This document shows, in pieces, positions 15,363 to 47,084 of a stretch of DNA of 52,439 nt; position 1 is the first letter of the stretch; each line of letters begins with the position of its first letter. The stretch spans positions 1 to 52,439 of the forward strand of contig NZ_LWSK01000033.1 in assembly GCF_001642955.1 (NCBI RefSeq), given 5' to 3'. The DNA comes from Rubripirellula obstinata (GTDB lineage Bacteria > Planctomycetota > Planctomycetia > Pirellulales > Pirellulaceae). Made by a program: the position numbers and the translations under genes. The notes beneath the pieces were generated by a model. The model searched no databases. It saw nothing but the letters and a program-made list of their open reading frames with translations, and was not told the DNA's origin.

Positions 15363-15617
15363 CTAGCGGCGCTTTTTAGCGGCCTTCTTCTTGGTCGCAC
15401 GCTTCTTGGTAGCTTTCTTCTTAGCAACCTTTTTCTTAGCTGCCTTCTTCTTCACAGCTTTCTTCTTAGTTGCTTTTTTCTTGGTTGCCTTCTTCTTAGC
15501 AACCTTCTTCTTAGTTGCTTTCTTCTTAGTAGCCTTCTTCTTGACTACCTTCTTCTTAGCAACCTTCTTCTTTGTTGCTTTCTTTGCAACTTTCTTCTTG
15601 GCTTTCTTCTTGGCCAT
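15363..15617 (-). CDS. Lysine-repeat histone H1-like nucleoid protein
   Basis: The 84-residue product is built almost only from KKKAT, KKKVA and KKKAA units; 48 of 84 residues are lysine, and it ends in RR. Such histone H1/AlgP-like tails bind DNA non-specifically and compact the nucleoid. A GGAGG site lies just before the start, unusual here where most genes lack one, and a good terminator follows, so it is probably a strongly expressed single gene. It has no globular domain. Because the DNA itself is a short-period repeat, its length is likely to vary between strains. Confidence 0.88.
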   Translation of the reverse strand: MAKKKAKKKVAKKATKKKVAKKKVVKKKATKKKATKKKVAKKKATKKKATKKKAVKKKAAKKKVAKKKATKKRATKKKAAKKRR

Positions 15618-30830: not shown

Positions 30831-30957
30831 TCCAAGCACCAGTTTTCTGGACGAGAAGCGTCGTGATGGTAGGCCCTGTGGAGTTCCACGACACACGGCA
30901 TCAATAAAGCAAGCCGCGCGCAACACGCAGCTCTACGTGGCATCGACCAAATCAAAA

Positions 30958-31535
30958 CGCAAAGTCGCCAGGCCGCAAAGCCGCAAAGAAGTTTTAACTC
31001 CAAAACCTTTGCGACCTAGCGTCTCCGCGTCTTTGCGTTGAAACCGTCCACCATCGCCACCCCGATTTCCGCTCAACGAATCGAACGCAAAGTCGCCAGG
31101 CCGCAAAGCCGCAAAGAAGATTTAATTCCAAAACCTTTGCGACCTTGCGTCTCCGCGTCTTTGCGTTGAAACCTTCCACTATCGCCCCTCGATTTCCGCT
31201 CAACGAATCGAACGCAAAGTCGCCAGGCCGCAAAGACGCAAAGAAGTTTTAACTCCAAAACCTTTGCGACCTAGCGTCTCCGCGTCTTTGCGTTGAAACC
31301 TTCCACTATCGCCCCTCGATTTCCGCTCAACGAATCGAACGCAAAGTCGCCAGGCCGCGAAGACGCAAAGAAGATTTAATTCCAAAACCTTTGCGACCTA
31401 GCGTCTCCGCGTCTTTGCGTTGAAACCTTCCACTATCGCCCCTCGATTTCCGCTCAACGAATCGAACGCAAAGCCGCCAGGCCGCAAAGAAGATTTATTT
31501 CCGAAAAAACTCTGCGTTTGTTAGTTGGTGATTTC
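30958..31535. repeat. 127-bp tandem repeat array, left block
   Basis: Units start at 30958, 31086, 31213, 31340 and 31467 with CGCAAAGTCGCCAGGCCG, giving a period of 127-128. Each unit has two arms rich in CGCAAAG and its complement CTTTGCG, so it is itself an imperfect palindrome. The last unit is truncated near 31500. A second block follows the GxxExxY gene. Confidence 0.95.
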
Positions 31536-31963: not shown

Positions 31964-31984
31964 ATCGGGATCTAGGAATAGAAA

Positions 31985-32290
31985 CGCAAAGTCGCCAGGC
32001 CGCGAAGACGCAAAGAAGATTTCATTCCAAAACCTTTGCGACCTAGCGTCTCCGCGTCTTCGCGTTGAAACTTTCCACAACCCACCCTCGATTTTCGCTC
32101 AATGAATCGAACGCAAAGTCGCTAGGCCGCAAAGCCGCAAAGAAGATTTAATTCCAAAACCTTTGCGACCTAGCGTCTCCGCGTCTTTGCGTTGAAATCT
32201 TCCACAACCCACTCTCGATGTCTTCTCAATGAATCGAACGCAAAGTCGCCAGGCCGCGAAGACGCAAAGAAGAATTAATTCCGAAAATCT
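31985..32290. repeat. 127-bp tandem repeat array, right block
   Basis: Units start at 31985, 32112 and 32239 with the same CGCAAAGTCGCC core and the same 127-base period as the left block. The last copy is cut off near 32285, at the 3' end of the PfkB kinase gene. Confidence 0.95.
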
Positions 32291-37719: not shown

Positions 37720-38622
37720 GTGATAGAAATCCGTCGCTTTGCGAGAGATGCTCTTTTGTCCACTAATAACCGCCGCGAGAAGCTTCGCGACCATATCCAG
37801 GCCTCCGGGTTTGCTGCGTTGGGGGAACTTGCGTGCTTGCTGGATGTCAGTGAATCGACGATTCGCCGCGATCTGGAATCGCTCGAGGAAGCTGGCGAGG
37901 CTCGTCGAACCCATGGCGGCGTTTATTGGACCGGTCAATCGGCGACGATTAGCGTCTTTCAATCAAGACAAGATGACGCTTGGCCTCGTAAGCAAGCGAT
38001 CGGCCAAATCGCTGACACGCTGATCGAAGACGGCGACACGATTCTGCTGGACGGTGGAAGCACGGTTTATGAATTGGCCCGGCGAATCGTCAATCGTCCG
38101 CTGCAGGTGGTCACCAACTCGCTGCCCGTTGCTCATCTTTTGTCCACCAGTGATTCGATTGACCTGATCATGGTTGGCGGATGCGTTCGCGGTCGAACTT
38201 CGGTCGCGATCGGTCCGATGGCTGACACGATGTTGGCTGGTATCAACGTTTCAAAGACGTTTCTTTCGGTTGCCGGGGTCACCAAGCGAGGCTTTTTCAA
38301 CAGCGACATGATGTTGGTGGAAAGCGAGAAGGCGATGATCGCCGCCGCGGATCAGACCATCGTTTTGACGGATCACACCAAGTTCGGAAAAGTCAGCCTG
38401 TCCCAGATATGTGGATTGCAAGACGTTGACCGGGTGGTCACCGACACCGGACTCGATTCCAAGTGGAATTCAGTATTGGAAACGGCGGGCGTCGAACTAA
38501 TGTTGGCATCAAGTGCCGAACACGCAGACCCGAATACGTCACGCAAAACTTCGCAAAATCATTCCGGCGGCGTGCCGCCTTTAAACCATTCTCCTCAATC
38601 CGGTTCGTCCATTTCATCATGA
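37720..38622 (+). CDS. DeoR family regulator of the BMC operon
   Basis: The most upstream start is GTG 37720; TTG 37756 (STNNRREKL) would fit the family better. The N-terminal HTH shows [20 protein letters not shown], the DeoR recognition helix, followed by RRTHGG. The C-terminal DeoRC sensor domain contains [19 protein letters not shown] and [10 protein letters not shown] and should bind a sugar phosphate. About 40 extra residues, low in complexity, end the chain. Its stop overlaps the PduL start (ATGA), so it is the first gene of the operon and probably represses it until an intermediate appears. Confidence 0.92.
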
Positions 38623-39365
38623 GCATGACTGTCGATCGATCTCAAATTGAATCCCTCGTTCGCGATGCGATTCGTCAATCCATGTCTGGCGCGGGTGTTG
38701 CCGCTTCGCCCGCAAGTTCTTCGGCGAGTCCTTCTTCGCAGCCGGCCGGTTGGGTCGATGGAAAACCAAACTTGCGAGTCAGCATTTCGGCTCGCCATTG
38801 TCACCTAACCGACGAACACGTCGAGATCTTGTTTGGTGCTGGCAGCGTTTTGGAACCCGACAAAGATCTTTACCAAGATGGCTTTTACGCCGCCAAGCAA
38901 ACCGTGATGGTGGTTGGCCCGCGTCGCCGCATGTTGCCCAACGTACGAGTGTTGGGGCCGACGCGTCCCTTCAGCCAACTGGAACTTGCGTTTACCGATT
39001 CAATTTCACTGGGCATCGACGCACCGGTTCGCCATTCGGGAAAAATCGAAGGCACACCGGGTTGCGTGTTGGTCGGGCCTGCCGGAAGCGTGCAGCTTGA
39101 ACAGGGCGTGATTCGCGCCGCTCGCCACGTCCACCTCAACGAACATGACGCCAATTTCTACGGCGTTTCAAATGGCGACATGATGCAATTGGTGATCAAG
39201 AGCAACGACTGCTCGGTCATCTTTGACGATGTCCTTGTCCGCGAAGACAAGGCCGCCAAGCTAGAAGTACACATTGATACTGACGAAGGCAACGCGTGCA
39301 ATTTGGATGCGGCTTCGGAAGTGTTTCTGCAAAAGATGCCCGGCGATTGTGCGTGCGGACATTGA
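38619..39365 (+). CDS. pduL: PduL-type phosphate acyltransferase with encapsulation peptide
   Basis: ATG 38619 overlaps the regulator stop and gives 248 residues. Residues 6-22 ([18 protein letters not shown]) form an amphipathic helix, then a Ser/Ala/Pro linker, the usual layout of a BMC targeting peptide. The PduL domains carry the zinc ligands in R59-H-C-H62-L and R169-H-V-H172-L. The enzyme converts acyl-CoA to acyl-phosphate, regenerating CoA inside the shell; here the acyl group is probably lactoyl. It is unrelated to Pta. Confidence 0.94.
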
Positions 39366-39370
39366 TTGAT

Positions 39371-39425
39371 GTAGCTGGGCCCGCCAGGGTTCAGTCAGCA
39401 CAGACTGAACCCTGGCGGGTCCAGT
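39371..39425. repeat. REP-like inverted repeat, family A, inside the BMC operon
   Basis: GTAGCTGGGCCCGCCAGGG.. and its complement (right end CCAGTC, decayed) lie between pduL and the first shell gene. Confidence 0.88.
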
Positions 39426-39481
39426 CAAGATGAAAACGATTCTTTACCTCCTGTTTCTGATTACGAAAGGCATCCAATTCG

Positions 39482-39781
39482 ATGGCAAAAATTAGTGAAG
39501 CGCTCGGCATGATCGAGACCAAGGGCTTTGTCGCCATGGTCGAAGCATCCGACGCAATGATGAAGGCCGCCAATGTTCAATTCCTCGGCTGGGACAAAGT
39601 CGGTGCTGGTTTAGCAGCCGTCTTCGTCACCGGTGACGTCGCTGCTGTGAAAGCTGCAACCGACGCTGGTGCCGCTGCTGCGGGACGCATTGGTGAAGTC
39701 GTCAGCGTTCAAGTGATTCCACGTCCCCACGGCGACCTGGAAAAAGTTCTCAAGTTGCCCGCCGCGACTGGCAAGAAGTAA
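39482..39781 (+). CDS. BMC-H hexameric shell protein 1
   Basis: The 99-residue protein is a single BMC domain. [20 protein letters not shown] is the family's start and [20 protein letters not shown] with VIPRPH its end. The pore loop carries G41-A-G43. Hexamers of such proteins tile the facets of the compartment shell. An 18-residue basic tail follows the domain. A repeat separates it from pduL, and 50 bases separate it from the second BMC-H gene. Confidence 0.97.
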
Positions 39782-39831
39782 CAACCGCAACTTCTACTCC
39801 ATAAATTATCCATCAAAGAAAGATAGACAAG

Positions 39832-40101
39832 ATGAACGACGCAATTGGATTGATTGAAACCAAAGGCTTGCTGCCGCTCGTGGAAGCAACCGACGCGATG
39901 GCCAAAGCAGCCAACGTTGAAATCGTAAAGCGAGTTGACCTTGGCGGCGGATTGGTCACAACCGTGGTCAGTGGTGACGTCGGTAGCGTTCGCGCTGCTG
40001 TCGAAGCAGGTGCCGCTGCCGCAGCCTCCGCAGGCGAATTGGTCAGCAGCCACATCATTCCTCGGCCTGCCGAAGGTTTGATTGGCGCTTACTTTAGCTA
40101 A
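39832..40101 (+). CDS. BMC-H hexameric shell protein 2
   Basis: The 89-residue BMC domain starts AIGLIETKGLLPLVEATDAM and ends with the canonical HIIPRPAEGL. Its pore loop is G38-G-G40, different from the GAG of the first hexamer, so the two may pass different metabolites. It has no basic tail. The two genes probably arose by duplication. Confidence 0.97.
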   Translation: MNDAIGLIETKGLLPLVEATDAMAKAANVEIVKRVDLGGGLVTTVVSGDVGSVRAAVEAGAAAAASAGELVSSHIIPRPAEGLIGAYFS

Positions 40102-40148
40102 TCAGCGTTTCGTCACACCATCCCACCCATCACGGAAGATTTCCCCTC

Positions 40149-41408
40149 ATGCTTATTCTTGTTGCAAATCTGGGTTCCACCAGTTTCAAATACAAATTGC
40201 TAGACGTCAGTGGCGAACTAACCGCCGACGTTCGGCCCGATGATCGTGTGCTTGCACGCGGTGCGGTCGAACGAATCGGTGATGCCCAAGGTGACGGTGA
40301 ACCGACTAGCCGTTGTGAGGTCACCATTGGTGACTACCACCACGTCTACGAAATGCCGGTTCCCGATCATGGCATCGCAGTGCAATCGTGTTTGGATCAG
40401 TTGACCGACCCGCAACATGGTTGCTTGAAGGATGCTTCGGCGGTTTCTGCGATCGGTTTTAAAGCCGTTCACGGTGGTCGCAAAAGTGGAACGTTTTTGG
40501 TTGATGACGATGTGCTTGAAGCGATGGCGGAAATGAATGCGGCCGCGCCCGCGCACAACCCGCCCTACATCGCAGCAATGAAGTTGTTGCGAGATCGGTT
40601 CCCCAACTTGCCGTTGGTCGCCGCCTTTGAAACTGAGTTTCATGATTCGATCCCCGAGGCTCGTCGCGTTTACGCGATCCCGCCAAATTGGAGAGAAGAC
40701 TATCAAGTTCAAAAGTGGGGATTCCATGGTTCCAGTCACCGTTACGTTGCCGAACGCGCCGCCGAATTGTTAGGCCGTAAAGATGCACGAATCATTTCGT
40801 GTCACCTGGGCGGAAGCAATTCATTGACCGCGATCCAAAACGGTCAAAGCGTGATGACGACGATGGGCATGACGCCTCAAACTGGGTTGCCGCAAAATAA
40901 TCGAGTCGGTGATTTCGATCCGTTTGCTCTGCCGCTGTTGATGCAGCGAAGTGGCAAAACGCTCGAACAACTGCTCGCTGAACTTGCCAGCGAAGGTGGG
41001 ATCAAAGGAATCAGCGAACGAAGTGGCGATCTTCGTGATGTTGAATTGGCCGCCGAGGACGGTGACGCCAAGTCCCAACTAGCACTGAACGTTTTTGTCG
41101 AAGAAATTCGTCGGCACATGGGTGGCATGATTGTCGCCATGGGCGGCGTCGATGCGATCGTGTTTACGGCAGGCATTGGCGAGAATTCAGACATCGTTCG
41201 ATCGGCAGTTTGTAAGAACTTGGATTCACTGGGCATCCAGTTCGATGAAGAACGAAACCAGAACCACCGTGGCAGCAGTCCGCCCGAAGGAGGAAATCCG
41301 GGCGAGGGCTATCTGCATGCGGAATCGAGTTCGACACAAATTTGGGTTATCCCCACCAACGAAGAATGGATTGTCGCCAAACGCACCAAGTTAGCACTTA
41401 GCCATTAG
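40149..41408 (+). CDS. ackA: Acetate/propionate-type kinase of the BMC pathway
   Basis: The 419-residue protein has the ASKHA acetate kinase signatures: VANLGSTSFKYKL at the start, GFHGSSHRYVAERAAELLG, and FTAGIGENSDIVR. It turns acyl-phosphate plus ADP into acid plus ATP and is the energy-yielding end of the PduL branch. Near the C-terminus, residues 375-390 (GSSPPEGGNPGEGYLH) are a low-complexity insertion where other acetate kinases have a short loop. The last codons and the stop lie in a 7-base repeat array. Confidence 0.94.
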   Translation: MLILVANLGSTSFKYKLLDVSGELTADVRPDDRVLARGAVERIGDAQGDGEPTSRCEVTIGDYHHVYEMPVPDHGIAVQSCLDQLTDPQHGCLKDASAVSAIGFKAVHGGRKSGTFLVDDDVLEAMAEMNAAAPAHNPPYIAAMKLLRDRFPNLPLVAAFETEFHDSIPEARRVYAIPPNWREDYQVQKWGFHGSSHRYVAERAAELLGRKDARIISCHLGGSNSLTAIQNGQSVMTTMGMTPQTGLPQNNRVGDFDPFALPLLMQRSGKTLEQLLAELASEGGIKGISERSGDLRDVELAAEDGDAKSQLALNVFVEEIRRHMGGMIVAMGGVDAIVFTAGIGENSDIVRSAVCKNLDSLGIQFDEERNQNHRGSSPPEGGNPGEGYLHAESSSTQIWVIPTNEEWIVAKRTKLALSH

Positions 41409-41425
41409 CCACTAGCGATTAGCTT
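41391..41425. repeat. Heptanucleotide array TTAGCNN over the ackA stop codon
   Basis: Five consecutive 7-base units (TTAGCAC, TTAGCCA, TTAGCCA, CTAGCGA, TTAGCTT) cover the last four codons and the stop codon of the kinase gene. Matching arrays occur at 45821-45855 and, inverted, at 45931-45965. Confidence 0.85.
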
Positions 41426-41463
41426 TTTTCACTCTTCACCCTTCACACTTCAAACGTCCAAAC

Positions 41464-41778
41464 ATGTTTCTAGCACGCGTTACCGGATCCGTTGTCAGCA
41501 CTCAAAAGGTGCCAACGATGACGGGCCATAAACTGCTGATCGTCGAACCGTATCGGCTGGACGAGAAGAAGCGTGATCGCCTGGTCACGACGGGACGAAC
41601 CTTCATCACGTGTGACACGCTTGGTGCAGGTGAAGGTGACTTGGTTTTGGTGTGCCAGGGGAGTTCGGCACGCCTGACGCCCGAAACAAAAACGTTGCCC
41701 ATTGATGCCGTGATCACTGGCATTATCGACAGCGTCCATGTTGAAAAGAAGGCGGTCTACGACCGCAGCGACGACTGA
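41464..41778 (+). CDS. BMC-P pentameric shell protein 1 (EutN/CcmL family)
   Basis: The 104-residue protein has the EutN/CcmL pattern: MFLARVTGSVVSTQKVPTMT, then a beta-barrel with DTLGAGEGDLVLVCQGSSAR and AVITGIIDSV. Pentamers of this family cap the twelve vertices of the shell. It stands between the kinase and the aldehyde dehydrogenase, and it is the first of three pentamer genes in the operon. Confidence 0.96.
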   Translation: MFLARVTGSVVSTQKVPTMTGHKLLIVEPYRLDEKKRDRLVTTGRTFITCDTLGAGEGDLVLVCQGSSARLTPETKTLPIDAVITGIIDSVHVEKKAVYDRSDD

Positions 41779-41885
41779 ATGAATAACCGTGGCCTAGGCT
41801 TTTAGCCTGTGATGAATTTCATCTCGGGCAACACGCCCAAGTCACGGTCAAACCAAAACAACGAACCTCACCCGAGTCTTCTAAT

Positions 41886-43325
41886 ATGCAATTTGACGAA
41901 TCCATTATCCGCAATGTCGTGGCTCAGGTCTTATCCGAAGTCGGCCCCATGCCCGCTGGTAATTCTGGTCCACTTCACAAGCATGTTGCACCCGGTGCCG
42001 GTCGCAATGGTGTCTTCACCGATGTCAATGAAGCGGTTGCCGCCGCCAAACATGCTCAAGAACAGCTTCGCCTGCGAAGCATGGAAGAACGCAAACAAGT
42101 CATCGACATCATTCGCCGGATCAGCATCGATCAGTGCGAAGAGTTGGGCTTGATGGAGATGAAGGAAACGGGCGTCGGACGTCCTGAGCATAAGATCGAA
42201 AAACTCAAAACGCTCGGCGAGCTATCACCCGGCACTGAAATGCTTGAAACAAAAGCATTCAGCGGCGATCACGGATTGGCGATTATCGAGCGTGCTCCGT
42301 TCGGCGTCATCGCCGCGATCACTCCCGTCACGCACAGCTTGCCCACGATCACCGGCAACTCCGTGAGCATGATTGCCGGCGGTAATTCAGTCGTCGTCAA
42401 TCCGCACCCATCGGGTAAGAAGATTGCTGCAGAAGGCGTTCGCCGCTTCAACGCTGCGATCGCGGAGGAAGTTGGCATCGACAATCTGATCTGCGTGATC
42501 GCCGAACCAACGTTGGAGTCGGCCGACGCATTGTTCACTCATCGCGACGTTTCACTGATCTGCGTTACCGGTGGTCCCGCCGTCGGTCGCGCCGCACTTC
42601 GCAGTGGCAAACGAGCCATCGTCGCAGGGCCCGGCAACCCGCCAGTGGTGGTTGATGAAACTGCTGATCTGGACAACGCAGCGAAGTGCATCATTCAAGG
42701 TGCTGCTTACGACAACAATCTGCTTTGCATTGCTGAAAAAGAAGTCTTCGTTGTTGATTCAGTTTTCGACGACATGATGGCTGCGATGGAGCGAGCGGGT
42801 GCTTTGCGATTGGACGCCACGCAAGTTCAAACGCTCACCTCGAAAGCGATCGTCAAAGTTGGCGACGACCAACACGACGCTGCCGCCAAAGAATTCATCG
42901 GCCAAGATGCAGCAGTCCTCGCCCGTGCGGCTGGTGCTCATCCCGCGGAAGGTTGCGAGCTTGTCTTTGGCGAAACTGACGAACATCACCCGTTTGTCAC
43001 CGTCGAACAGATGATGCCGTTCTTGCCTTTCGTCCGTGCTCGCAACGTTGATCACGCGATCGCGATGGCTAAGGAATACGAACATGGTTTCCGTCACACC
43101 GCGATCATTCACTCACGCAATGTTAGCAACATGACCAAGATGGGCCGCGAACTTGATACGACTTTGTACATCAAGAATGGACCCAGCATGGCCAGCCTTG
43201 GGCTGGGTGGCGAAGGTTACCTATCGTTTTCAATCGCCGGACCAACGGGTGAAGGCGTGACGAATCCCAACACATTCACTCGCGAACGCCGATGCAGCAT
43301 GATCGACGAATTGCGAGTCGTCTAA
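41886..43325 (+). CDS. CoA-acylating aldehyde dehydrogenase with encapsulation peptide (PduP-like)
   Basis: The 479-residue protein belongs to the EutE/PduP group. Catalytic cysteine C281 lies in YDNNLLCIAEKE, and VTGGPAVGRAAL is the cofactor-binding segment. Residues 1-20 (MQFDESIIRNVVAQVLSEVG) form an amphipathic helix followed by a linker, a typical cargo signal. It should oxidise L-lactaldehyde to lactoyl-CoA with NAD, feeding PduL. Its TAA overlaps the next start (TAATG). Confidence 0.95.
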   Translation: MQFDESIIRNVVAQVLSEVGPMPAGNSGPLHKHVAPGAGRNGVFTDVNEAVAAAKHAQEQLRLRSMEERKQVIDIIRRISIDQCEELGLMEMKETGVGRPEHKIEKLKTLGELSPGTEMLETKAFSGDHGLAIIERAPFGVIAAITPVTHSLPTITGNSVSMIAGGNSVVVNPHPSGKKIAAEGVRRFNAAIAEEVGIDNLICVIAEPTLESADALFTHRDVSLICVTGGPAVGRAALRSGKRAIVAGPGNPPVVVDETADLDNAAKCIIQGAAYDNNLLCIAEKEVFVVDSVFDDMMAAMERAGALRLDATQVQTLTSKAIVKVGDDQHDAAAKEFIGQDAAVLARAAGAHPAEGCELVFGETDEHHPFVTVEQMMPFLPFVRARNVDHAIAMAKEYEHGFRHTAIIHSRNVSNMTKMGRELDTTLYIKNGPSMASLGLGGEGYLSFSIAGPTGEGVTNPNTFTRERRCSMIDELRVV

Positions 43326-43579
43326 TGCAAACCGCCAACGTTATCGGTAACGCAAGAGCGACCACGAAACACAGTTCGCTCGTCGGACAAAGGCTGGTGA
43401 TTGCTCAACCGGTTGGCGTCGAAGGTGGCCCGGATGGACCGCCTTTGTTGATTTTGGATTCACTCGGATGCCGTGTCGGCGACCAAGTGATGATCACCAG
43501 CGACGGATCCGCTGTCGATGACATTACCGGAGTAGATAATTGTCCCGCACGATGGAGTGTGTGCGGGTTGATTGACTGA
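43325..43579 (+). CDS. BMC-P pentameric shell protein 2 (EutN/CcmL family)
   Basis: ATG 43325 shares one base with the preceding stop and gives 84 residues. VIGNARATTKHSSLVGQRLV and DSLGCRVGDQVMITSDGSAV follow the EutN/CcmL pattern. The open frame begins at 43292, but the earlier ATG lies inside the dehydrogenase gene. It is the shortest of the three pentamers. Confidence 0.95.
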   Translation: MQTANVIGNARATTKHSSLVGQRLVIAQPVGVEGGPDGPPLLILDSLGCRVGDQVMITSDGSAVDDITGVDNCPARWSVCGLID

Positions 43580-43611
43580 ACTGATCGTACTGTTAAGCCA
43601 CGAAGTGGCGG

Positions 43612-43895
43612 CAGCACTTAGCCTGGGGCGTAAGCCCCAGGAACAAAGAAAGAAGAATTCAAGAGGCCCCGACGGGGCGACACGAACGCGACGATTGATT
43701 GCTTTCGCCCCTCTGGGGCTTGTGACTCGGTTGACTCGCGAAACCTGGGGCTTACCGGCCTGTCGATTGAATAGTAGATCCAAATTTATAGTCGCCTTTT
43801 GCTCCGCAAAAGCAGCGTTTGTGGACGCAACTTTCGCGGAGCGAAAGGCGACTATGATTTAAACGACAAGCCGTTACGCCCCAGGCTAAATGCTG
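43612..43895. repeat. Composite nested inverted repeat inside the BMC operon
   Basis: Outer arms CAGCACTTAGCCTGGGGCG.. (43612-43633) and the complement (43874-43895) differ by one base over 22. Inside lie arms ATAGTCGCCTTTTGCTCCGC (43788-43807) and its complement (43836-43855), and between these a GGCCCCGACGGGGCGA-type hairpin near 43664-43680. The 368-base gap contains no gene. Confidence 0.85.
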
Positions 43896-43947
43896 TCGTG
43901 CCTTCGGTACTGAGAAATTACGACTTGAAAGTTACTTAAAAAAACCT

Positions 43948-44619
43948 GTGTCTTCCATTCATCTTCCTGCCGAAATCACCCCAAGCATCGACATCGCGTC
44001 GATTGTTCGGCGAGTGATACATGAACTGAAGAAAATGGAAGTGGACGAAGTGATTTCCGAGCAGCCTGTCGAAACGCGAGCGACGACGTTTGTGTTCGAT
44101 CATCGCGTGATCACGTTGTCGGATATCGACGGCGTGCCAGCCGCGATGAACACGATTGAATTACCAGCGGGCGGAATTGTCACACCGGCAGTTCGTGACG
44201 TGCTTCGTAGCCGAGGGATTTCAATCTCGCGCACGACGTCGAAACCAGTTGTTAGCCAAGTCGGCAAGTCCGGCTCGAAATCAAAAGCTCACTCGCCGTT
44301 TCGCCCGATCCATCTGCAACATGATGAATCGATTGACGCGGCTCTTTTGGAATCCGTTAAAAAACAGCTTTCGATTCGTGGCATCAAACTTTGCAATCGA
44401 GCCAGTCGCGGCGTGATGTTATCCAGTCGCCCGGCAACCGCAGTCTATCGCTGCATCAGCGACAATGTTTCAGCGGTTTCGATCAACCGAATGGATGACG
44501 TGATTCGGTTCAAACAAGAACTCAAGCCGTCGGTCTACGTGCTGGACGCGCAACACCTGAATTTGATCGCGATCGTCAATGCGATTGCTCAAATTGCTAG
44601 ACACGGAGGCCAAAAATGA
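43948..44619 (+). CDS. Unknown BMC-associated protein with a cargo-like N-terminal helix
   Basis: GTG 43948 opens a 223-residue frame. Residues 13-32 (DIASIVRRVIHELKKMEVDE) look like the targeting helices of the other cargo proteins. VITLSDIDGVPAAMNTIELPAGGIVTPAVRD, given in parts, resembles a segment found in several BMC-linked proteins. The last 95 residues are arranged like an RpiB/LacA isomerase fold, with RASRGVMLSSRPATAVYR in place of the active-site loop, but lack its catalytic cysteine. The stop overlaps the next pentamer gene (ATGA). The function is unknown; the RpiB resemblance is weak. Confidence 0.8.
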   Translation: MSSIHLPAEITPSIDIASIVRRVIHELKKMEVDEVISEQPVETRATTFVFDHRVITLSDIDGVPAAMNTIELPAGGIVTPAVRDVLRSRGISISRTTSKPVVSQVGKSGSKSKAHSPFRPIHLQHDESIDAALLESVKKQLSIRGIKLCNRASRGVMLSSRPATAVYRCISDNVSAVSINRMDDVIRFKQELKPSVYVLDAQHLNLIAIVNAIAQIARHGGQK

Positions 44620-44906
44620 AGATGGCTCGAGTCGTCGGGAACACAACGCTGGCAAGGATGCATCCTGCAATGCACTCGTCGACCTTGCGATGCGTCGAAG
44701 TGATTGGATCGATCGACGAGATTGACAATCTGACACCGGGCGGCGACTTGATTGTCGCCTGGGATACTTGCGGATCCAGTGTCGGTGACCTCGTCGCACT
44801 CGCCGAGGGCCCCGAAGCCGCAGCACCGTTCAAACCGGACATCAAACCCATTGATGCCTCCATCGTGGCCATTTTGGATTCCTACGATATCCAGAAGCCG
44901 AATTAG
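44616..44906 (+). CDS. BMC-P pentameric shell protein 3 (EutN/CcmL family)
   Basis: ATG 44616 overlaps the unknown cargo gene's stop and gives 96 residues. KMARVVGNTTLARMHPAMHS and DTCGSSVGDLVALAEG fit the EutN/CcmL fold, and ASIVAILDSYDI its end. Three different pentamers suggest either specialised vertices or mixed shells, as reported for other BMC types. Confidence 0.95.
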   Translation: MKMARVVGNTTLARMHPAMHSSTLRCVEVIGSIDEIDNLTPGGDLIVAWDTCGSSVGDLVALAEGPEAAAPFKPDIKPIDASIVAILDSYDIQKPN

Positions 44907-44952
44907 TCTCCATTAACCCGCTAACTTTTCCTTTTCATCAACGAGTTTCACC

Positions 44953-45825
44953 ATGGAAAACCTGCACAAGATTAAACAAGACATGTGCGACATCGGACGC
45001 CGTATTTACAACCGACAATTCGCTGCGGCCAACGACGGAAACATCACCGTGCGGGTCAGTGAAAACGAAGTGCTTTGCACACCAACGTTGCATTGCAAAG
45101 GCTTCTTGAAGCCAGACGACATCTCACTTGTTGACATGACTGGCAAGCAATTGTCGGGTCGTAAAAAGCGTTCCAGCGAAGCTTTGTTGCACCTGGAAAT
45201 CTACAAGCAACGCGAAGACATTCGCAGCGTCGTTCACTGCCACCCACCGCACGCGACCGCATTCGCGATCGCACGTGAACCGATTCCACAGTGCATTCTG
45301 CCTGAGGTCGAAGTGTTCTTGGGTGACGTTCCGATCACGAAGTACGAAACACCCGGCGGTCAATCGTTCGCCGATACGATCATTCCCTACGTCAACAAGA
45401 CGAACGTGATGATCCTGGCCAATCACGGTACGGTGTCTTACGGCGAAACGGTTGAACAAGCTTATTGGTGGACCGAAATCCTTGACGCATATTGCCGCAT
45501 GTTGTTGCTGGCGAAGCAGCTTGGCAACGTGTCGTTCTTGAATGCCGAGAAGTCGCAAGAGTTGCTCGACCTGAAGGACAAGTGGGGCTACAAAGATCCT
45601 CGAAACACCGAGGACTACAAAGATTGCGACATCTGTGCGAACGATATCTTCCGCGAATCGTGGGCCGACACCGGTGTCGAGCGTCGTGCATTCCCAGCAC
45701 CTCCGCCAATCAAGTCGACTGGCGACGCATCACCGTCGGCCAAACCAGCGATGCCAGCAGGTGTCGATGAAGCTCAGTTGGTCAAGGCAATCACTGATGA
45801 AGTGATTCGTCAAATGTCTAAGTAG
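44953..45825 (+). CDS. Class II aldolase (fuculose/rhamnulose-1-phosphate type) with C-terminal encapsulation peptide
   Basis: The 290-residue protein has an aldolase/adducin domain (1-220). E76 is the likely catalytic base, and H95, H97 (VVHCHPPHA) and H158 (ANHGTVSYG) are the zinc ligands. It should split fuculose-1-phosphate or rhamnulose-1-phosphate into DHAP and L-lactaldehyde. A Pro/Ala-rich linker leads to a C-terminal helix (DEAQLVKAITDEVIRQMSK) similar to the N-terminal ones of PduL and the dehydrogenase, so the aldehyde is probably made inside the shell. Which sugar is used cannot be told here. Confidence 0.94.
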   Translation: MENLHKIKQDMCDIGRRIYNRQFAAANDGNITVRVSENEVLCTPTLHCKGFLKPDDISLVDMTGKQLSGRKKRSSEALLHLEIYKQREDIRSVVHCHPPHATAFAIAREPIPQCILPEVEVFLGDVPITKYETPGGQSFADTIIPYVNKTNVMILANHGTVSYGETVEQAYWWTEILDAYCRMLLLAKQLGNVSFLNAEKSQELLDLKDKWGYKDPRNTEDYKDCDICANDIFRESWADTGVERRAFPAPPPIKSTGDASPSAKPAMPAGVDEAQLVKAITDEVIRQMSK

Positions 45826-45855
45826 CTTTTAGCGTTTAGCACTTAGCTATTAGCT
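45821..45855. repeat. Heptanucleotide array TTAGCNN over the aldolase stop codon
   Basis: Units AGTAGCT, TTTAGCG, TTTAGCA, CTTAGCT and ATTAGCT repeat with period 7 and include the aldolase stop codon, just as at the kinase gene. Confidence 0.85.
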
Positions 45856-45930
45856 TTTGATATGCCCGGTCTTCGCCGAAACGGCTACGACCCAGTCTCC
45901 TAAATCCTTACTATTCCTTATCCCCGATCG

Positions 45931-45965
45931 GCTGTTGGCTAATCGCTAACAGCTAATCGCTATGA
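45931..45965. repeat. Inverted heptanucleotide array GCTAANN before the dehydrogenase gene
   Basis: GCTGTTG, GCTAATC, GCTAACA, GCTAATC and GCTATGA repeat with period 7 and are the complement of the TTAGC array 80 bases upstream, so the two can pair. It ends ten bases before ATG 45976. Confidence 0.85.
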
Positions 45966-45975
45966 GCCAAAAAAA

Positions 45976-46911
45976 ATGAAAGTTTCCATCATCGGTGGCG
46001 GTGGCCTCGTCGGTTCCTGTGCTGCCTACGCATTGCAGTGCGGCGGACTTGCTAACGAAGTCGCTTTGCTTGACGTCAACGAAGAATTGGCGGTCGGTCA
46101 CGCTTTGGATTTGCAGCACGGCGGACCTAGCGTCTCGAACACGGTCTACGCGGGCGGTGGCTACGAGCACATTCCAACGTCGGACATCATCTGCATCACC
46201 GCGGGCCTGCGTCGCAAACCGGACGAATCGCGTTTGGATTTGATCAATCGCAACACCGACTTGTTTGTTGACATCCTGAAGAACGTCAAAGCGGCTGGTC
46301 CAAAGTCAACTGCGATCGTTTTGGTGGTCAGCAATCCTGTTGACATTTTGACTTACGTGGCCGCCGACAAACTCGGTTTGCCGCCACAGCAAGTCATCGG
46401 ACTGGGAACACAGCTTGATACGATCCGATTCTGTTCGCTGATCGCACAAGAATTAAAGGCTCCCGCGTCACAGACCAAGGCATTGATCTTGGGCGAACAC
46501 GGCGAGTCGATGGTTCCGATCTGGAGCAGTGCGACGATCGCTGGTCTGCCATTGGATAAGTATCCTGGTTGGAATCCGTCGCTATCGAGTGCTTTGTTTA
46601 CTCGAACCCGCGGCAGTGGTGCGGAAGTCATTAGTCGTAAGGGCGGTGCGGGATTCGCCGTTGGTATCGCAATCCGTGACTGTATCGACGCGATCATCTT
46701 GGACACGCAATCGGTGTTGCCGGTCAGTAGCATTCAAAATGGTTGCTACGGAATCCGCGACGTTGCCCTCAGCGTTCCCACGGTGCTGGGCCGAACTGGC
46801 GTTCAAGCAACGATGGAAATTGATTTGTGGCCAAAGGAAGTCCAAGGCCTAGTTCAGAGCGGTGCGGCCCTTCGCAAGACGCTTGACACGGTCATGCAAC
46901 GCGTCGGTTAG
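45976..46911 (+). CDS. Malate/lactate dehydrogenase of the BMC operon
   Basis: The 311-residue protein has the LDH/MDH Rossmann start (VSIIGGGGLVGSCAAYAL), catalytic H175 in GEHGES, and substrate arginine R151 in DTIRFC. In the specificity loop (AGLRRKPDESR) the residue that is Gln in lactate and Arg in malate dehydrogenases is R80, so malate use is favoured by the classical rule. Unlike its neighbours it shows no encapsulation helix. It ends the operon and may recycle NADH made by the aldehyde dehydrogenase. Confidence 0.9.
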   Translation: MKVSIIGGGGLVGSCAAYALQCGGLANEVALLDVNEELAVGHALDLQHGGPSVSNTVYAGGGYEHIPTSDIICITAGLRRKPDESRLDLINRNTDLFVDILKNVKAAGPKSTAIVLVVSNPVDILTYVAADKLGLPPQQVIGLGTQLDTIRFCSLIAQELKAPASQTKALILGEHGESMVPIWSSATIAGLPLDKYPGWNPSLSSALFTRTRGSGAEVISRKGGAGFAVGIAIRDCIDAIILDTQSVLPVSSIQNGCYGIRDVALSVPTVLGRTGVQATMEIDLWPKEVQGLVQSGAALRKTLDTVMQRVG

Positions 46912-46983: not shown

Positions 46984-47084
46984 GAACCGCTAATCGACGC
47001 TGATCGAACGCTAACAAATCCAACGGTCGTGATGTAGAACACCTAATGTTTTGTTAGCGTTCGATCAGCGAAGATTAGCGGTTC
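46984..47084. repeat. 35-bp inverted repeat after the BMC operon
   Basis: Arms at 46984-47018 and 47050-47084 (GAACCGCTAATC..CGCTAACAAA and complement) differ by two adjacent bases. The loop is 31 bases. It lies 70 bases after the last BMC gene and may end its transcript. A short direct repeat, CCAGGGTAGTGGT, occurs twice at 46920-46951. Confidence 0.9.

Follow-up and report, generated by a model that had tools for sequence, protein, structure and literature searches.

A Planctomycetes-Verrucomicrobia-type microcompartment operon in Rubripirellula obstinata, with a conserved and probably RpiB-derived protein between its vertex-protein genes

The stretch of DNA analysed here, referred to throughout as the window, is contig NZ_LWSK01000033.1 of Rubripirellula obstinata (52,439 nt). 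At positions 37720-46911 it carries twelve genes, all on the + strand and every one with an open reading frame, and we are highly confident that these form a bacterial microcompartment (BMC) operon of the published Planctomycetes-Verrucomicrobia (PVM) type, belonging to a Rhodopirellula/Neorhodopirellula-like planctomycete. The locus mainly adds a member, ordinary and probably functional, to this described organelle type. One of its genes encodes a protein, here called HYP, which is very likely derived from the isomerase RpiB and, with only slightly less assurance, is not a working RpiB. The assembly comprises 6.58 Mb in 307 contigs, with completeness 99.99 and contamination 2.07. The genes of the cluster are as follows, with their profile matches as E-values or bits.

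37720-38622, + strand: DeoR-family regulator (PvmA equivalent); DeoRC 1.6e-48, HTH_DeoR 2.6e-14
38619-39365, + strand: PduL phosphotransacylase (PvmB equivalent); PTAC/PduL Pfam 6.1e-70, NF011652 239.9 bits (cut-off 209)
39482-39781, + strand: BMC-H shell protein 1; PF00936 8.3e-27
39832-40101, + strand: BMC-H shell protein 2; PF00936 1.4e-26
40149-41408, + strand: acetate/propionate-type kinase (PvmG equivalent); PF00871 1.3e-98, TIGR00016 319 bits (cut-off 293)
41464-41778, + strand: BMC-P 1, pentameric vertex protein; PF03319 (EutN_CcmL) 1.6e-28
41886-43325, + strand: CoA-acylating aldehyde dehydrogenase (PvmJ equivalent); PF00171 3.6e-37, NF011927 627 bits (cut-off 403)
43325-43579, + strand: BMC-P 2, start read from the sequence; PF03319 6e-21 (scored on the frame from 43292)
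43948-44619, + strand: HYP, probably PvmL, 223 aa; characterised by conserved place, fold matches, catalytic positions and selection
44616-44906, + strand: BMC-P 3; PF03319 3.1e-16
44953-45825, + strand: class II aldolase, the signature enzyme (PvmN by position); PF00596 1.4e-48
45976-46911, + strand: lactate/malate dehydrogenase family (PvmO equivalent), proposed NADH recycler; PF00056 (Ldh_1_N) 1.5e-34, PF02866 4.2e-29

A sequence-only reading of the window had named eleven of these genes, and each was found at the coordinates above, on the + strand, with a strong Pfam match, so that chance is excluded for them. The twelfth, HYP, was absent from its list. Its mention of several ATGA overlaps was slightly generous: there are two, at 38619-38622 (DeoR/PduL) and 44616-44619 (HYP/BMC-P 3), and the third overlap is a TAATG at 43323-43327, between the aldehyde dehydrogenase and BMC-P 2. 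The starts of PduL and BMC-P 2 were revised to 38619 (the ATGA on the DeoR stop) and 43325 (the TAATG). An open reading frame at 43572-43862 was rejected as a gene, having no Pfam match and lying inside a repeat block. Scans for promoters (4 found, 5.3 expected) and terminators (18 found, 12.0 expected) gave nothing usable.

The features of PVM membership found here are the class II aldolase as signature enzyme, the acylating aldehyde dehydrogenase, PduL, an acetate-type kinase, a lactate/malate dehydrogenase, DeoR, two BMC-H and three BMC-P proteins, and a conserved order. For this type, 285 representatives are counted in PMC8217296. The earlier match to the planctomycetal organelle for fucose and rhamnose breakdown is supported by the gene set, the order and the rhamnose genes of the genome, rhamnose being well supported and fucose less certain. 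The observation that there is no BMC-T shell protein also holds genome-wide. No BMC-T was found because the only two PF00936 matches in the assembly are the two BMC-H proteins of the cluster, and a BMC-T hidden elsewhere in the genome is thereby ruled out. PVM loci are described in PMC4207490 as normally lacking BMC-T, and functional metabolosomes without it are described there too.

Amphipathic helices are predicted at the N-terminus of PduL, the N-terminus of HYP and the C-terminus of the aldolase, with helical moments reached by 1.6%, 0.6% and 3.3% of shuffled sequences, respectively. The N-terminal extension of the aldehyde dehydrogenase resembles an encapsulation peptide, with a helical moment that is not significant (41% of shuffles reach it). 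It is worth adding that the N-terminus of the aldolase, which is not a proposed peptide, also scores (moment reached by a fraction of 0.019 of shuffles).

Three sets of related loci were fetched: 33 through HYP, 20 through BMC-P irrespective of HYP, and 38 through the aldehyde dehydrogenase. The BMC-P set was hand-picked from 46 other genomes with a BMC-P match in the same family, order or class, and 63 BMC-P-matching genomes from other classes of the same phylum were left out of that set. Order was counted only in loci with at least four cluster genes found, which leaves out L077 (BMC-P set, BMC-P 1 only), L115 and L119. The gene order of the window is kept in 32 of 33 HYP-picked loci, 17 of 19 BMC-P-picked loci and 34 of 36 picked by the aldehyde dehydrogenase. 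Seven records are common to the HYP and aldehyde dehydrogenase sets (none to the BMC-P set), and the counts are therefore not to be summed. The suggested specificity of the order to this genome is thus not borne out, the same order being found in most relatives of all three sets. The exceptions are a locus with its last gene in two frames (L054), one with HYP after BMC-P 3 (L074), one with the second BMC-H in two copies and HYP not found (L084), and two from other phyla, namely L121 (Puniceicoccaceae) and L122 (Gemmatimonadaceae). DeoR is the first cluster gene in relatives whose sequence extends that far. Among named relatives the nearest is Neorhodopirellula pilleata Pla100 (L086), whose aldehyde dehydrogenase is 92% identical to that of the window.

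Where both BMC-P 2 and BMC-P 3 are present, HYP is the gene directly between them in 17 of 19 loci from the BMC-P set, in all 27 from the dehydrogenase set and, by the choice of the set, in all 32 from the HYP set. Almost all planctomycetal PVM loci examined whose sequence covers this site keep the gene between two vertex-protein genes. The sole verrucomicrobial locus checked, L121 (a 5.4 kb contig), stands outside this count, its BMC-P 3 having been labelled BMC-P 1; it has no HYP between BMC-P 2 and 3, and none was found in the 1.9 Mb of its genome sequence. A further frame of about 160-190 codons, resembling a membrane protein, separates BMC-P 1 from the aldehyde dehydrogenase in all nine listed loci of one family of the same class, f21 (L075, L076, L078-L083 and L085). 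Five of the nine were scanned, none passing a Pfam cut-off, and the frame is absent from 12 other listed loci and from the window. It is probably PvmI, and f21 is probably the family of Planctopirus limnophila.

On the evidence of genes elsewhere in the genome, rhamnose probably comes first as the substrate of the organelle. The genome encodes the L-rhamnose isomerase RhaA (1.3e-204) and a rhamnulokinase (TIGR02627 9.3e-152; its 505.7 bits fall narrowly short of the equivalog cut-off, 527.95, and the fuculokinase model gives 116.4). Both lie on contig C265, together with an aldehyde dehydrogenase, a permease-like protein that Pfam does not match at 1e-5, and a 486-aa class II aldolase with two tandem domains (L172 7365-8825), which adjoins RhaA and the rhamnulokinase. 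On contig C113, a RhaT symporter, an isomerase related to arabinose/fucose isomerases and an alpha-L-rhamnosidase are found side by side. On the fucose side there is one alpha-L-fucosidase. The best fucose-isomerase-like match is to Fucose_iso_C, at 3.4e-7 only, and the best NCBIfam model is arabinose isomerase, far below its cut-off. Two FGGY kinases were found, one being rhamnulokinase-like and the other a xylulokinase over its cut-off. The best PDB relatives of the organelle aldolase are two aldolases and two L-fuculose phosphate aldolases (E 1.8e-24 to 4.8e-20). Given the isomerase, kinase, symporter and rhamnosidase for rhamnose, against sparse fucose genes, rhamnose is therefore the better-supported substrate and fucose a possible one. 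PMC11958385 describes expression driven by the pvm regulator and promoter of P. limnophila that is induced by rhamnose.

Pfam and NCBIfam name no family for the HYP of the window. At an E limit of 1, PF02502 (RpiB) matches five of the 33 HYP members (best 1.3e-4), the window's own HYP being unmatched. With a limit of E 10, a profile built from 12 divergent members gave 13 PDB matches, nine of which are RpiB/LacB chains (best 0.0088), and comparison of this divergent set with a profile of 23 true RpiB sequences gave a probability of 74%. The AlphaFold2 model of a distant homologue, from L056, has a mean pLDDT of 82.3 and a pTM of 0.54. It matches E. coli RpiB in Foldseek with an E of 5.9e-8 and a TM-score by target of 0.73, and ranks 1-34 of its Foldseek list are all RpiB or galactose-6-phosphate isomerase chains. 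For the model of the window HYP (pLDDT 84.4, pTM 0.51), RpiB is the top match (E 2.3e-3), and 41 of the 50 best listed rows are RpiB/LacAB-type, two 4u8f ketol-isomerase chains included.

The residues that we take to be catalytic in RpiB were compared in an alignment of 83 loci (the window not included, some genomes present twice) with 12 true RpiB sequences. The Cys column holds T, S or A in 75 of the 83 loci and C in two, the His column never holds H, and little is left of the glycine-rich loop, whose glycines are kept in at most two loci. The N-terminal Asp-His and C-terminal Arg positions of RpiB fall mostly on gaps and were not used. In a profile alignment the HYP of the window has Ser for the Cys and Glu for the His. 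HYP as the genome's own RpiB enzyme is ruled out, as the genome has its two true RpiB genes on other contigs and HYP is not among the matches. A literature search found no named likeness of a PVM protein to RpiB; this search did not cover Erbilgin 2014, the primary organelle paper.

HYP also evolves very fast. The window HYP is 25-36% identical to its counterparts in the same genus (median 31, n=19). Its neighbours are much better conserved, with median identities of 80 (aldehyde dehydrogenase, n=18), 84 (aldolase, n=18), and 88 and 84 (the two BMC-H proteins, n=17 each). The ratio of non-synonymous to synonymous substitution rates (dN/dS) is 0.19-0.37 for HYP in five pairs, against 0.01-0.1 for the aldehyde dehydrogenase, aldolase, kinase and last dehydrogenase, 0.04-0.22 for PduL and 0.23 to 0.63 for some BMC-P, these values being subject to stop-to-stop frames in the fetched loci (including bases 5' of the starts) and to saturated dS in the window-L086 pair, where the BMC-P 2 row is invalid (wrong frame). 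Because some BMC-P rows, inflated in part by those added 5' bases, and one PduL row (0.22) are equally high, the contrast rests on the longer enzyme genes. HYP as a pseudogene was rejected, its frame being open in the window and dN/dS below 1 in all five pairs.

In layout, HYP has an N-terminal encapsulation-like helix, a short module here called ITP-ARD, and the RpiB-like C-terminal domain. The only residues invariant in 33 sequences are T79, P80 and D84, in the middle of the protein and outside the RpiB-like domain. EutC N-termini are among the weak profile matches to the HYP N-terminus (E 0.38 and 0.47 in one profile search, 0.032 and 0.75 in another), and the ITP-ARD module weakly matches EutQ, EutT and a verrucomicrobial aldolase (E 0.023, 0.066 and 0.42, in a search space of 4300 proteins). 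PF15953 PDU_like gives a weak match in two of the 33 members (best 0.0067), and no plasmid relatives of HYP were found.

Some observations on this module in other loci may be recorded here. The verrucomicrobial aldolase just mentioned is of PVM type (L121 3279-4370), with the likeness in an N-terminal extension, and its locus has no HYP. The module is well matched in two gemmatimonadotal proteins (9e-10 and 3e-9) of a BMC locus (L122 10435-10917 and 12283-13869), one of them being fused to what looks, by eye, like a DapA-type domain. In L062 (8217-8465) an 83-codon HYP frame keeps the helix and the ITP-ARD module and is missing the RpiB-like domain, through either a frameshift or a natural short form.

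From the gene content, order, conservation, homologies and predicted HYP fold established here, we infer the following reactions, shell assembly, encapsulation and adaptor role. RhaA and RhaB, encoded elsewhere in the genome, would make L-rhamnulose-1-phosphate, which the encapsulated class II aldolase would split into dihydroxyacetone phosphate and L-lactaldehyde. The acylating aldehyde dehydrogenase would convert the latter to lactyl-CoA, PduL would then yield lactyl-phosphate, and the kinase lactate and ATP. The lactate/malate dehydrogenase homologue may regenerate NAD+ through the reduction of a second lactaldehyde. BMC-H and BMC-P would form a shell that retains the toxic aldehyde, under the control of DeoR. 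HYP would be a further cargo-like protein, with the RpiB fold, without its catalytic residues, and with an encapsulation-like N-terminal helix.

The cluster and its surroundings are also marked by repeats, which are located as follows.

39375-39424, no strand: 22-nt inverted repeat in the PduL/first BMC-H gap; 95% complementary, 6 nt separating the arms
41391-41423, + strand: (TTAGCNN)n heptad array, covering the last codons of the kinase gene and continuing beyond its stop
43580-43947, no strand: 368-bp dispersed-repeat block in the BMC-P 2/HYP gap, from own-genome matches
45822-45970, no strand: inverted pair of (TTAGCNN)n arrays in the aldolase/dehydrogenase gap, from the sequence pattern
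46984-47084, no strand: 35-nt inverted repeat 3' of the cluster; 94% complementary, 31 nt separating the arms

The 368-bp block is composed of pieces that are dispersed in the genome, with at least 79 own-genome matches (a count that takes in the block itself and both strands of palindromic pieces, 40 of the 220 initial candidates having been scored), and has inverted repeats nested within it (43601-43633/43874-43906 and 43783-43818/43825-43860). The gap that it fills is 26 bp long in N. pilleata, and in 77 loci of all three sets its median width is 2 bp and its largest 300 bp, by a nearest-start estimate that is too low in some loci (-19 in L086, against the 26 read from the sequence). The exact three-unit TTAGCNN pattern occurs 98 times per strand genome-wide, compared with 1 and 11 for the reversed control; of 39 other genomes, 36 lack it altogether and the remaining 3 have no more than 15 copies each. 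By eye, a + array is often followed some 20-140 bp on by a - array, as a hairpin-like element. A brief literature search found no description of these arrays in the best 20 of 528 papers. The earlier claim that the repeats are specific to this genome has largely stood, given the heptad counts and the absence of the block at the N. pilleata site, and the repeats, unlike the order, are thus largely peculiar to this lineage.

Elsewhere in the window, two arrays (30956-31490 and 31983-32287) share nearly one 127-bp tandem repeat unit, and 15372-15611 is a tandem repeat with units of 15, 45 and 60 bp, whose - strand would, by eye, code for a lysine/alanine-rich stretch.

Several points weigh against the interpretation of this locus as a rhamnose organelle with a conserved HYP. 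The double class II aldolase and aldehyde dehydrogenase on C265 belong to a second, separate rhamnose cluster, because of which the organelle may not be the sole rhamnose route; the double aldolase is possibly a second, non-organelle route for rhamnulose-1-phosphate. The fucose genes are incomplete, the matches offering no persuasive fucose isomerase or fuculokinase in a search that did not take in the N-terminal family of fucose isomerase. A search of 60 related genomes with the window HYP alone gave matches at E 1e-3 in 34, its own included, and none in 26, although two of the 26, G042 and G055, carry both the operon and HYP by profile (L074 and L073, the only two checked for the operon). 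The organelle might instead serve mainly another sugar phosphate that yields lactaldehyde, or mainly fucose: class II aldolases are said in PMC4207490 to be generally promiscuous, and the alpha-L-fucosidase and the L-fuculose phosphate aldolases among the PDB relatives point the same way. With the rhamnose isomerase, kinase, symporter and rhamnosidase all present, and the fucose isomerase and fuculokinase wanting, we regard this as unlikely. It would be far more surprising if the operon were decaying, the repeat block and heptads having uncoupled HYP and BMC-P 3 from the upstream genes so that no complete organelle is made. The block does split a junction that is normally of a few bases and of 26 bp in N. 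pilleata, but all twelve frames are open, other relatives' gaps reach 300 bp, and dN/dS is well below 1 for 11 of the 12 genes in the window-N. pilleata pair, with the limits noted above for saturated dS and the BMC-P 2 row. A functional, rhamnose-directed PVM organelle is therefore preferred.

The RpiB likeness of HYP has its own weak places. Seven members scored singly all fall below the PF02502 cut-off (best 20.7 bits against 24.7), three of them with no RpiB match. A profile of all 33 members gave seven PDB matches, designed TIM barrels first and none of them RpiB, and its comparison with true RpiB gave a probability of 11%. The model of the window HYP has no match at 0.001 or better, its top row having a root-mean-square deviation of 15.8 and a TM by target of 0.43. 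As to function, HYP could be an active isomerase or epimerase with a re-made active site that works within the organelle on, say, a sugar phosphate. The predicted RpiB-fold domain and the conserved place between shell genes would suit such an enzyme, and RpiB-type proteins belong to the SPU and SPU-like BMC types (PMC4207490, PMC8217296). However, the Cys and His columns and the glycine-rich loop are mostly lost in the 83 loci, the window has Ser and Glu, the sole invariant residues lie outside the RpiB domain, and evolution is very fast, which makes an active enzyme improbable. The most likely role on our hypothesis, judged from sequence and predicted models, is that of a structural cargo adaptor. 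RpiB forms oligomers, and we tentatively propose, as one possible form of this role, that HYP (probably PvmL) is a catalytically dead RpiB whose self-association presents several encapsulation helices and ITP-ARD modules, bridging the enzymes and the shell. If this is true, an SPU-type isomerase would be the evolutionary ancestor of a structural part.

These results tighten the substrate prediction for the PVM locus to rhamnose. They also make HYP, as an RpiB-derived and probably non-catalytic protein, a candidate PVM assembly protein that is deletable, and one that links PVM to SPU-type organelles. Genetic tools are published for P. limnophila (PMC11958385).

The PVM cluster of P. limnophila is named pvmABDEGHIJKLMNO in PMC11958385. 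The supplementary legend of PMC6620236 places PvmB with phosphate acyltransferases, PvmG with kinases, PvmJ with acylating dehydrogenases and PvmO with alcohol dehydrogenases, and the published letter order would match that of the window on the assumption that HYP corresponds to PvmL and the aldolase to PvmN. As far as these sources describe it, the P. limnophila cluster shares with the window DeoR as the first gene, PduL, the shell genes, the kinase, the acylating dehydrogenase and a dehydrogenase as the last; it has thirteen genes to the twelve of the window, whose operon holds repeats. N. pilleata Pla100 has the same twelve genes in the same order, together with the closely similar aldehyde dehydrogenase noted above. 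It differs in its HYP, which is 48% identical, in its short BMC-P 2/HYP gap, and in the absence of the exact heptad triplet from its 17.4 kb of fetched sequence. SPU and SPU-like BMCs are described in PMC4207490 as having an RpiB-type protein in the locus, the SPU-like type also with a class II aldolase, and the SPU isomerase as being 48-53% identical to true RpiB, whereas the HYP members scored singly fall below the Pfam RpiB cut-off and HYP lacks the catalytic residues. In relation to the RpiB/LacAB isomerases themselves, HYP has the same predicted C-terminal fold, without the Cys, the His and the glycine loop, and with an extra N-terminal helix and module.

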